Positions 30,393-35,682 of a DNA stretch of 64,000 nt are shown here, in pieces. Positions within the stretch are counted from its first letter, which is position 1. The number at the start of each line of letters is the position of its first letter. The stretch lies in assembly GCA_016868315.1 (NCBI GenBank), contig VGHE01000001.1, positions 248,001 through 312,000 of the forward strand. Direction: 5' to 3'. This stretch comes from Betaproteobacteria bacterium. GTDB taxonomy: Bacteria > Bdellovibrionota_B > Oligoflexia > Silvanigrellales > Silvanigrellaceae. A model generated the notes under the pieces. It was not told where the DNA came from and searched no databases. It was given only the letters and a program-made list of their open reading frames with translations. The position numbers were made by a program, and so were the translations under genes.

Positions 30393-30866
30393 ATGGCAGA
30401 AGTTAAGAAGGCAGCAGCGAAGAAACCTGCGGCTAAGAAGGCAGCAGCGAAGAAGGCAGCAGCGAAGAAGCCTGCAGCTAAGAAAGCGGCAGCTAAGAAG
30501 CCTGTAGCCAAGAAGGCAGCAGCCAAAAAGCCAGCAGCGAAGAAGGTTGCCAAGAAGGCAGTCGTCAAGAAGGCAGCTAAGAAACCAGCTGCCAAGAAGG
30601 CAGTGAAGAAAGCTGCCAAGAAGGCAGTGAAGAAAGCTGCGAAGAAGGCAGCGGCAAAGAAGCCTGCGGCAAAGAAAAAGGCTGCAAAAAAGGCTACGCG
30701 CAAGGCTGGTAAGAAGGCCGGAGCTGCAAAAAAGTCCGCAGCTCCCAAGAAGCGCGGTCGTCCAAGCAAGCTTGAGAAGCTCCGCCAGACCATTCGTCGC
30801 GGTCGTCCACGCAAGGGCTCTGCGAAGTCTGACAACGGCGCAATGGCTGAAGGCGGTCAGCTCTGA
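30393..30866 (+). CDS. Histone-H1-like nucleoid protein with two AT-hook-like motifs
   Basis: A 157-residue protein of A-A-K-K-P repeats over its first 110 residues, like bacterial H1 homologues. The C-terminal part has K-R-G-R-P-S-K and R-R-G-R-P-R-K, two AT-hook-like R-G-R-P cores. It should bind and condense DNA in the cytoplasm. Start: AAAGGAG lies 7 bases upstream (30380-30386). The N-terminal codons are highly repetitive (AAGAAG-GCAGC). It is a stand-alone form of the tail seen on the peroxiredoxin at 2268. Confidence 0.9.
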   Translation: MAEVKKAAAKKPAAKKAAAKKAAAKKPAAKKAAAKKPVAKKAAAKKPAAKKVAKKAVVKKAAKKPAAKKAVKKAAKKAVKKAAKKAAAKKPAAKKKAAKKATRKAGKKAGAAKKSAAPKKRGRPSKLEKLRQTIRRGRPRKGSAKSDNGAMAEGGQL

Positions 30867-32077: not shown

Positions 32078-32167
32078 TTGTTCCACAACGAGCCAATTTC
32101 ATTTCAGAAGTAAACCGTTTAGCATCTAAGACACGAGCTGCGCGACGTCTTTTTGAGGGGACAATCG

Positions 32168-34615
32168 ATGGGAACCTCGTCCAACATACTTTCTCCGTAC
32201 ATCAATGGTCGATTCCTGCAGTTGAACAGGCCGGAACGTATCTTTCACACCCAAAATCCCGTTAACCCGGGCGATGTTCTTGCTGTCACCGGATGGAACA
32301 AAGACTTGGTTGGTGAAATCGTTGAAGCAGCCAAGCGCGCGCAGTTTCAATTTGCAGCGCAATCGCTTTCGTCGCGGATGCAATTTGTTAATGCTGTGAT
32401 TGCCAATTTGCGGCAGTCCTCAGAGGAAATGAAGAGCCAAATGATGCTCGAACTCGGCCGTTCTCGTTGGGCTGTGGAGCGTGAGTGGGAATTGTGCGAG
32501 GAGCTCTTTCGTCATTTACCACGGTATTGCTCCGACGAACTTTCGCCCCAGAAATCTGAGCTTGGGTGGAGCTGGTCGTTTGCTCCGGTGGGTCTCATTC
32601 TGGTGAGCAGCAACGTAGCGCTACCCGTTTACACCGCACTCTATAGCGTTCTGACCTCAATTGCTGTGGGCAATGCAGTGGTGTTTCGGCCTTCAGCTCA
32701 TTGCCCTCTTTCAGCGTCGCTGATTGCAAGTTGCTTCCACCAGGCATCGCCTGTGGCAGGTCTCTTGCAGGTTGTTTATGGCGACCTTGAGGTGTACCGG
32801 CGGCTCGTGCTCTCGCATCAATTTGACACAATTTTCTACACGGGTGGCGAGGAATCTCTCGAGCAGCTGCGCCGAGATATGTCCACCGACCAAAACGTGC
32901 GCCTTGTTCTTTGTGGTGGTGGAAAGAATGCAGCCATTATCTCTGCCGATGCCGACATGGATTCTTCCGTGAGTCATGTTCTTCTGGGAGCGTGTCTCGA
33001 TGCAGGGCAGCGGCTCGAATCCACCGGCCTTGCGTTCGTGGATCGCCGCATTGCAGATGCTTTCGTTGAGCGCTTCGTTCGAGCCGTGAAGCAGATGCCT
33101 ATCGGCGTGAAGAATCAGCTCTCCGATGCCTCGCAACATGTGATGGGGCCACTCGCTAGCCAAACGTCTTGGGATCGCTTTTTGCGTTTTCAGGGAATTG
33201 CTGCGCGCGAATCGAGAGAAACTCTGCGTTGGGGTAAGGCCATCGATAATCCCGGTGGTGGATACTTCGTGTCGCCCGGCGTGCATTTGATTGATTGCGA
33301 CAAAGTCAAAAACAGCGTCTATGCATCGAACGCTTTCTTTGCGCCTGACGTGGCTATTGTTCCTGTAGACAGCATCGATGAAGCTGTGTCGTGTATCAAT
33401 GAACTCGCCAGTGCGCGCTCGGTTTCCGTGTTCTCGCAGAACGAGGGCACGGCAATGAACGTGCGCCGTCATTGCGTTGCACCCTTGGTTTTGAATGCTC
33501 AACCCACCACCCAACTGCATCCGCTGATGCCCACCATGGGGCGTGGCAAAGCAGGCAATTCCTGCGTGATGGGGCTGCGGTTCTTGAAGCACACAGTTTA
33601 CCCACAGACTCTCAATATGAATCCGCCTCCTGTGACCTCACCCGTGCCTTCGTCCGGTTCATCTGCAAAAAGAGGTGTAGGTGTTGGCAAGCTGGTCTCG
33701 GTTCTATTTGCTTTGTTGTTGCCGATGTTGGGTTTGATGTCACAGCAGGCAAACGCAGCGGACTACCGTAAGTCGGTTGAAGGCAACGAAGTTGTCAAAG
33801 GTAAGTTCTATCCCAAGTCGGGTCGCTTCCAAATCAATGCCGGGGGTGGTGGTCTCATCAACCAATCATTCATCAATACATTTCTTGTGGGTGGTGCGCT
33901 GACCTATCACTTTCAGGAATGGCATGCGATCAACTTTGAAGTTTTTGCAGGCATTTCGTCCGACAAAGCTGACCGTACCTGTATTGAGAACTTTTATCTT
34001 GATGAAGACTACGCAACCGCAAGCGGCTCCAACATCAAACCTCCATGCCCGTTGAAGGAGCCAGTTCTCAAGAATGCTGGAGCAATTCCTGTGGGTGCCG
34101 GAACACCTCCTGACGCAGACAAGAGGGGCGGCAAAGATGATGCTTACTATGGTAGCCGCGCACCTTTCGCCAAGAACGCAGCCTACATGCCCATTCGAGA
34201 GCTCACCTTCCTGGGTGCAGCGAACTACCAGTGGACTCCCGTTTATGGAAAGTCGTTGTTCTTTCTTTCGCAGGTGCTCTATCTCGACTTCTATCTGAAT
34301 GCGGGTTTGGGTTTGGCTATGTCCAACTTTTTTCCGCTCAAAGATAAAGTTGAAGATCCCGACGGTAACCTTAAACCCATGAAAGAAGTCGGTACCATTG
34401 ACGATAAAAAATATGGAAAGGAAGGGCGTCCTGCTCCACAAAGCCAAACAAGCCCGATGGGGACATTTGCGATTGGTAGCCGCTTCTATATGGCGCGCAG
34501 ATATCTTCTTGATGTCCAATTGAAGAACTACTCGATTATCGGTGAGAACGGTCAAGGCGGAAGCGACTTCACTGCTCCTTTTGCGCTTTTGGGTGGTATC
34601 GGAATTCTCCTCTGA
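32168..34615 (+). CDS. Degenerate aldehyde dehydrogenase fused in frame to an outer-membrane beta-barrel protein
   Basis: An 815-residue open frame. Residues 10-480 follow the whole aldehyde dehydrogenase fold (Y-I-N-G-R, F-H-T-Q-N-P, N-A-V-V-F-R-P, Y-T-G-G). However, the catalytic Cys position of G-Q-x-C is Leu283 (A-G-Q-R-L) and the general-base Glu position is Cys249 (V-L-C-G-G-G-K), so it should be inactive. From Met484 comes a signal-peptide-like segment (K-R, a long hydrophobic core L-V-S-V-L-F-A-L-L-L, then A-N-A/A-D), followed by a Gly/Tyr-rich beta-strand domain ending Gly-Ile-Leu-Leu. An internal ATG at 33617 could start the second part alone, but no ribosome site is seen there. Start at 32168: GAGGGG 7 bases upstream. 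Confidence 0.75.
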   Translation: MGTSSNILSPYINGRFLQLNRPERIFHTQNPVNPGDVLAVTGWNKDLVGEIVEAAKRAQFQFAAQSLSSRMQFVNAVIANLRQSSEEMKSQMMLELGRSRWAVEREWELCEELFRHLPRYCSDELSPQKSELGWSWSFAPVGLILVSSNVALPVYTALYSVLTSIAVGNAVVFRPSAHCPLSASLIASCFHQASPVAGLLQVVYGDLEVYRRLVLSHQFDTIFYTGGEESLEQLRRDMSTDQNVRLVLCGGGKNAAIISADADMDSSVSHVLLGACLDAGQRLESTGLAFVDRRIADAFVERFVRAVKQMPIGVKNQLSDASQHVMGPLASQTSWDRFLRFQGIAARESRETLRWGKAIDNPGGGYFVSPGVHLIDCDKVKNSVYASNAFFAPDVAIVPVDSIDEAVSCINELASARSVSVFSQNEGTAMNVRRHCVAPLVLNAQPTTQLHPLMPTMGRGKAGNSCVMGLRFLKHTVYPQTLNMNPPPVTSPVPSSGSSAKRGVGVGKLVSVLFALLLPMLGLMSQQANAADYRKSVEGNEVVKGKFYPKSGRFQINAGGGGLINQSFINTFLVGGALTYHFQEWHAINFEVFAGISSDKADRTCIENFYLDEDYATASGSNIKPPCPLKEPVLKNAGAIPVGAGTPPDADKRGGKDDAYYGSRAPFAKNAAYMPIRELTFLGAANYQWTPVYGKSLFFLSQVLYLDFYLNAGLGLAMSNFFPLKDKVEDPDGNLKPMKEVGTIDDKKYGKEGRPAPQSQTSPMGTFAIGSRFYMARRYLLDVQLKNYSIIGENGQGGSDFTAPFALLGGIGILL

Positions 34616-35682
34616 TGCCTGTGCTCTTCGTTCCCCCGACACAGGTCATCCCCTTCGATGCCGAGCGCCTTGTCGAGCAGCGCAAGGCTATGGATGAGTT
34701 TCGCGCACAGGCAGTCGCGCTGTGGCAGACCAAACCGCAAGATGAAATCAAGACAGGAGGCTTCCGTCGCTCGAGGAGCTACGAGTGGAGTGAGCCTTTC
34801 GATGCCATTTTGCAAACTTTTTATATTTATCCAACCGGACTCGCACAGCGCACCGGTGAAGTTGCCCAGGTGGCTGCTCTCTTTAAAAAGGACTCTTGCC
34901 AACTGCTCGGCAGCGCAGTTGTTTGGGGCACTGAATGGGTGAAAGCGCTCCCTTCAGGGGAAGCTCAAAACGAGCTGAATCGGCTCAAGCAAGCGTCTGC
35001 GCGCAAATTCGAAAACGCGAAATCGCCTATTCGTTTGAGCACCGCAGGCTACGGCTATTGGGACACGACTCTCGCATGGATTTCGGAAGCATATGTGGGC
35101 GAGAAGTTGGCAGGTGAAGGCCTCATCGTGCACTCGGATCTTGTGGGTGTGGTGTGTGCCAAGGAATCGAAAGGAGCCTTGCCGGGTGCAACCGCGAGCG
35201 AGCCGCTTCTAAAACGAGGGCATAGGCAAGTGCGAATCGTTCTGAGGGGCACAAAACCAAAACAGCCCGAGCGCTGGCCAATGGTTGAAGGTAAAGTTTC
35301 TGTCCTCGCGCTTCCATTGAATACATCGATCTCTGCACTCAAACCTGTCGAACTGAAACAGGAACCATTCGCGCCGAAGAATCTTGCTGCAGGAGTGCTG
35401 ACACAAGTGCAGCCCGCACTGCATGTTCTGAACGAAAAAGAGATTAAGGTGACTCAGAGGCAGGGGCGTTTTGCGACAGTTGAGAGAGGTCTCGCTTATG
35501 GCTTGCGGATTGGAATGCATCTGCTTGGACCCGACGGAGCAAAGTTACATGTGATTCGCTTTGATAACCGTAATGGCTCAGCAGATGCCGCAATACTCCT
35601 GATCCGCAAGGAGTCAAAAGAAAAGCCCCTCGCTGAAGGGGCAATTTTGCAGGTTGATTCGACACAATATCCAACCAAGTGA
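34615..35682 (+). CDS. Hypothetical protein coupled to the outer-membrane fusion
   Basis: A 355-residue protein, family not recognised. There is no clear signal peptide. The middle is Tyr/Trp-rich (F-Y-I-Y-P-T-G-L-A-Q and A-G-Y-G-Y-W-D). The C-terminal 80 residues are strand-rich (V-T-Q-R-Q-G-R-F-A-T-V, then G-L-R-I-G-M), resembling beta-domains found at the ends of some envelope proteins. The ATG shares its first base with the stop of the upstream gene (TGATG), so translation is coupled. It is probably part of the same envelope function. Confidence 0.7.
   Translation: MPVLFVPPTQVIPFDAERLVEQRKAMDEFRAQAVALWQTKPQDEIKTGGFRRSRSYEWSEPFDAILQTFYIYPTGLAQRTGEVAQVAALFKKDSCQLLGSAVVWGTEWVKALPSGEAQNELNRLKQASARKFENAKSPIRLSTAGYGYWDTTLAWISEAYVGEKLAGEGLIVHSDLVGVVCAKESKGALPGATASEPLLKRGHRQVRIVLRGTKPKQPERWPMVEGKVSVLALPLNTSISALKPVELKQEPFAPKNLAAGVLTQVQPALHVLNEKEIKVTQRQGRFATVERGLAYGLRIGMHLLGPDGAKLHVIRFDNRNGSADAAILLIRKESKEKPLAEGAILQVDSTQYPTK

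Follow-up and report, generated by a model that had tools for sequence, protein, structure and literature searches.

How can a single bacterial gene encode both a soluble, cytosolic enzyme fold and a protein of the outer membrane? This question is raised by a gene on the forward strand at positions 32168-34615 of the window, a stretch of 64,000 nucleotides from a member of the Silvanigrellaceae (class Oligoflexia). The sequence reads as a single open frame of 815 codons with zero internal stops. Its first part encodes an aldehyde dehydrogenase (ALDH) fold that lacks the catalytic residues, and an intact signal peptide with a domain of the outer-membrane beta-barrel type follows in the same frame (Table 1). 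The frame begins with an ATG preceded by a strong Shine-Dalgarno sequence; by anti-SD duplex, that of genome G001 is the same as in the window and that of G002 is weaker.

Table 1. Coordinates of the fusion gene, its parts and the adjoining gene in the window.
Feature	Position	Strand	Basis or remark
Shine-Dalgarno GAGGGG of the fusion gene	32155..32160	+	sequence; anti-SD duplex -8.4 kcal/mol
Pseudo-aldehyde-dehydrogenase half, residues 1-483	32168..33616	+	Pfam Aldedh E 7e-57; aligned with orthologues and same-genome paralogues
Linker (residues 484-507), flexible, rich in Pro, Ser, Thr and Gly and containing basic residues	33617..33688	+	
h- and c-region of the putative internal signal peptide (residues 508-530)	33689..33757	+	hydrophobicity; A-x-A-like site
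TIGR04565-like outer-membrane beta-barrel domain, predicted mature part (residues 531-815)	33758..34612	+	family matches
Stop codon TGA of the fusion gene	34613..34615	+	shares a base with the start ATG of the following gene (TGATG)
Downstream gene, 355 aa, no Pfam/NCBIfam family	34615..35682	+	

The N-terminal half retains the ALDH fold and has lost the residues on which catalysis depends. Residues 24-476 match Pfam Aldedh with 193 bits against a gathering score of 23, covering positions 8-455 of the 461-position profile. The best curated family is succinylglutamate-semialdehyde dehydrogenase AstD (TIGR03240, NF006992; 153 bits), but the window ALDH lacks the catalytic residues and falls far under both cut-offs (133 versus 579 bits and 153 versus 514). 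Aligned to active-type paralogues from the same genome, it carries Leu in place of Cys302, Cys in place of Glu268, Ala in place of Asn169 and Arg in place of Lys192, with Ala also at the Glu399 position. All six same-genome paralogues keep Cys302, Asn169 and Lys192, and five keep Glu268. The fused ALDH has neither Cys302 nor the pair of Glu268 and Asn169 expected of an active aldehyde dehydrogenase. One other ALDH match in this genome (L003, G000:C15:38254-39492) contains one TGA and one TAA and may be broken or an edge effect.

The same residues are lost across a wider clade of pseudo-ALDHs. Asn169 is gone from all 37 clade orthologues examined, and Glu268 and Lys192 are each gone from 36 of the 37. 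Position 302 is Leu or Val in all 14 family members; of the 23 class relatives, 16 still have Cys there. With a profile of the clade, 39 of 58 class genomes give one strong match each, a single copy that is split over two contigs in G029; a phylum-level search gave the identical 58 genomes. Complete orthologues score at least 432 bits with this profile versus at most 182 bits for same-genome paralogues, from which clade-specific invariant residues such as L339, Q342, R347 and H373 are missing. These alignments mark the ALDH as a long-standing lineage of pseudoenzymes, and the loss of its catalytic residues is not a private decay of the window genome. Among divergent class members of the clade, G043, G025, G024 and G023 (L107, L108, L110 and L111) retain Cys302, and G024 also retains Glu268; these relatives may have partial or different activity.

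Between the three closest species, the ALDH half shows a dN of 0.09-0.14 and the barrel one of 0.24-0.33, at saturated dS. The ALDH half is under purifying selection and is more strongly constrained than the barrel. Pseudogene decay was rejected on this strong constraint, dS being saturated. Because the constraint is so strong, the dead ALDH has a function, presumably binding, and its role is probably one of non-catalytic binding or scaffolding.

The C-terminal part scores 57.8 bits against NCBIfam TIGR04565 (outer membrane beta-barrel), slightly under the curated cut-off of 60. The same family (OMP_myx_plus) matches all 14 orthologues at E <= 1e-5, the best at 1e-24. A full-length structure prediction from three sequences reached a pLDDT of 29, and the barrel fold hence rests on the family matches; the barrel profile gave no match among solved structures. 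Ahead of the barrel, at residues ~500-530, stands a signal-peptide-like segment in which basic residues are followed by LVSVLFALLLPMLGLMSQQANA and then ADY. Nowhere else in the fusion protein is a 15-residue window as hydrophobic as in this LVSVLFALLLPMLGLMSQQANA region. Signal peptidase is predicted to cut between ANA and ADY, which would make ADYRKSVEGNEVVK the start of the mature barrel. Both parts of the architecture described in the original prediction, a dehydrogenase half without the catalytic Cys and Glu and an in-frame signal peptide near residue 500 leading into an outer-membrane-type domain, are confirmed by these comparisons.

The linker and the h-region vary in sequence from one fused protein to another, yet the basic residues, the hydrophobicity (2.05-2.78 on the Kyte-Doolittle scale) and the A-x-A-like site are retained. 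The site is present in six of six (ANA, AQA, ANA, ARA, ANA and ASA); the linker is almost missing in G003. Fused h-regions are slightly more hydrophobic than those of free outer-membrane proteins (OMPs), with p ~0.01 at windows of 15 and 18 residues and not at 12, a p-value that overstates the evidence because related sequences were used. This difference is suggestive, as higher hydrophobicity would suit recognition of the segment during translation.

The fusion is found in six genomes from four genera of the family: G000, G001 and G002 of the window's own genus (g1), G003 (g2), G004 (g3) and G005 (g4). The identity per half is 40-87%, and the architecture recurs in the other genera at low sequence identity, far beyond chance. 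The copy in G005 is broken across two contigs, whose ends overlap by 54 identical bases within the fusion. Free barrel genes, mostly of 285-365 aa, occur in 37 genomes of the class, and many class genomes have the barrel without the pseudo-ALDH. The class outgroups carry ALDH and barrel as separate genes, and when the two are neighbours they usually stand in a cluster that runs MnmE, ALDH, phosphohexomutase (PGM), barrel (OMP). The fusion is true, old and fixed, and it arose from separate neighbouring genes. Since the MnmE and mutase genes of the window's genome lie on other contigs than the fusion, the old cluster was broken up, with ALDH and barrel left adjacent and fused.

One further genus, g5 (eight genomes, G006-G013), has the ALDH alone, and a barrel of the TIGR04565-like type is found nowhere in its genomes. 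In the ALDH tree, g5 falls inside the fused genomes, which form one clade in 4% of bootstrap trees; in the RpoB tree the fused clade has 0% support and the deep forks are unresolved. These two trees suggest that the fusion preceded the loss of the barrel in g5, and the simplest history needs a single fusion and, after it, a single loss of the barrel half. Remnants of the barrel were sought downstream of the solo ALDH in G007, G012 and G013, and none were found. AT-rich stretches of 0.8-1.6 kb lie between the solo ALDH and the next gene in G007 (L048 10646-11478) and G012 (L120 11979-13549) and are probably the site of barrel loss. G013 has a frame of 201 aa (L051 3600-4205, reverse-complement orientation) that begins like a signal peptide and overlaps the stop codon of the solo ALDH. 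This frame sits at the expected place of the barrel, and the barrel profile gives no match to it.

How, then, would the two halves be parted? We consider it likely, with room for real doubt, that this fixed, old fusion is a small polyprotein: the internal signal peptide directs export of the barrel, signal peptidase severs the chain, and the pseudo-ALDH stays in the cytosol. Translation would begin only at the ALDH ATG, and the ALDH half would emerge first and fold in the cytosol, catalytically dead. The hydrophobic segment at ~508-530, with basic residues ahead of it, would then insert N-in as an internal signal peptide, and the C-terminal half would pass through Sec. Signal peptidase I would cleave after the A-x-A-like site, and the released barrel would proceed to the outer membrane. 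The pseudo-ALDH would stay behind on the cytosolic face, where the cleaved signal peptide at its own C-terminus would tether it for at least a short time. We infer export by Sec, the cut itself, assembly of the barrel and a binding role for the ALDH; cleavage is predicted from the motif.

Spacing argues for the cut. Some 25 residues are too few to span the distance from inner to outer membrane while tethered. Because the barrel starts no more than ~25 residues beyond the membrane segment, cleavage would be needed for the barrel to reach the outer membrane. Export of the ALDH along with the barrel was rejected, as there is no N-terminal signal and the most hydrophobic segment is internal. The original prediction was right to call a cytosolic fold before an internal signal peptide topologically odd, and signal-peptidase cleavage resolves this best. 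Its suggestion of a lost stop codon is likewise borne out as a true, old gene fusion, the class relatives carrying two separate genes.

A variant of the polyprotein model, and compatible with it, holds that the fusion is neutral: a stop and a start were lost, signal peptidase resolves the product, selection is hardly affected and nothing is gained from fusing. We give this reading slightly less than even credence. One genus has shed the barrel again, and across the class the halves can be found apart; that either is also encoded by itself suggests that the two need not act together. Easy and neutral splitting, however, would not be expected to leave the fusion intact for so long in four diverged genera, a point that is itself countered by the need for a new stop, ribosome-binding site and start to arise together before the gene could be split again.

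It is unlikely that one frame yields two products, the full-length ALDH-OMP and, mainly, a secreted barrel from an internal start. The candidate is the first codon of the linker (484, 33617), the sole ATG at the junction before the hydrophobic segment. This ATG stands at the identical place in all three g1 species, so it may act there as a weak internal start, and its product would carry an N-terminal signal peptide with an n-region of ~25 residues. However, it lacks a Shine-Dalgarno sequence in all three, with anti-SD energies of +0.4, +2.4 and +0.9 kcal/mol. The corresponding medians are -5.8 for real starts in the window and -2.1 for other internal ATGs (n=117), and free OMP genes of the class mostly start at -5.6 to -8.2. 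The ATG is also missing in G003, G004 and G005, and in G004 neither ATG, GTG nor TTG occurs in the stretch that starts 63 codons before the hydrophobic segment and runs past the predicted cleavage site. No excess synonymous conservation was found at the junction. Because an internal start would lack a ribosome-binding site, synonymous conservation and, in G004, start codons, the barrel most likely comes from the full-length polypeptide, and the earlier suggestion that the second half is started internally is disfavoured.

Harder still to credit is an uncut protein, in which the ALDH stays covalently bound as a plug, anchor or targeting module of the barrel. Retention of the fusion in four genera and strong conservation of the ALDH half would fit such a role. 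Against it stand the A-x-A-like site kept in every fused protein, the short spacer between membrane segment and barrel, and the occurrence of the ALDH without barrel in g5 and of the barrel without pseudo-ALDH in many class genomes. We are more sceptical again of the pseudo-ALDH as an export aid, a cis-chaperone or targeting domain that would bind the nascent barrel or Sec/SRP, with release by signal peptidase ending the export cycle. Nor is the plug or chaperone of the original prediction needed to account for the dead enzyme, since either half is also found without its partner. Lastly, an assembly or sequencing error that masks a stop codon near 33610, which the original prediction had named as its refutation, has practically no chance of being correct: the window genome is a draft of 27 contigs, but the same open frame is present in five other genomes, from its own genus and three others.

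To our knowledge, signal peptidase processes very few polyproteins in bacteria, and no known example links an outer-membrane protein to a soluble protein of the cytosol. The FbcH polyprotein of Bradyrhizobium japonicum reportedly contains cytochrome b and c1 in a single precursor. As there, one bacterial gene would give one precursor, with an internal signal peptide exporting the second half and signal peptidase making the cut, which here is predicted. The first half of FbcH differs in being an integral membrane protein, and both of its halves belong to one enzyme complex, whereas the window fusion combines a soluble pseudoenzyme with an outer-membrane barrel, functionally unrelated as far as known. 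The barrel also departs from its TIGR04565 relatives in the class, which stand alone and carry their signal peptide at the N-terminus, in forming the C-terminal half of a fusion.

The ALDH half likewise has precedents. ALDH16 pseudoenzymes retain the ALDH fold without the catalytic Cys (PMC8160307), and Cys-less ALDHs of GRM1 microcompartments retain the fold as well (PMC4207490); a binding or scaffold role has been proposed for both. In contrast to these, the window ALDH is a separate lineage that has also lost Asn169, Glu268 and Glu399, whose clade has signature residues of its own and in which fusion to an exported protein was the last step. A link between the barrel and GltA/GltB of gliding (PMC3169522) was considered.

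As read here, the fusion combines variants of two already known kinds, a probable polyprotein and a pseudo-ALDH, and is not categorically new. If the polyprotein model is true, Sec and signal peptidase process an internal signal peptide behind a folded domain of ~480 residues in nature. The class also offers a natural before-and-after series, from separate genes to the fused gene to a gene that has lost the barrel again. In addition, a class-wide conserved pseudo-aldehyde-dehydrogenase is identified, which annotation pipelines would probably label an enzyme.

The 355-aa gene that overlaps the fusion's stop codon follows the fusion in the fused genera and the solo ALDH in g5 (G006, G007, G008, G010 and G012). 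It stands behind ALDH(-OMP) in nearly all family members read, the divergent G013 being the exception, and a homologue sought in the class loci examined was not found. Elsewhere in the window, at 30393-30866 on the forward strand, a Lys/Ala-rich, histone-H1-like protein with repeats adjoins mutY, and a similar KK-rich frame also lies near mutY in G005 and G013.
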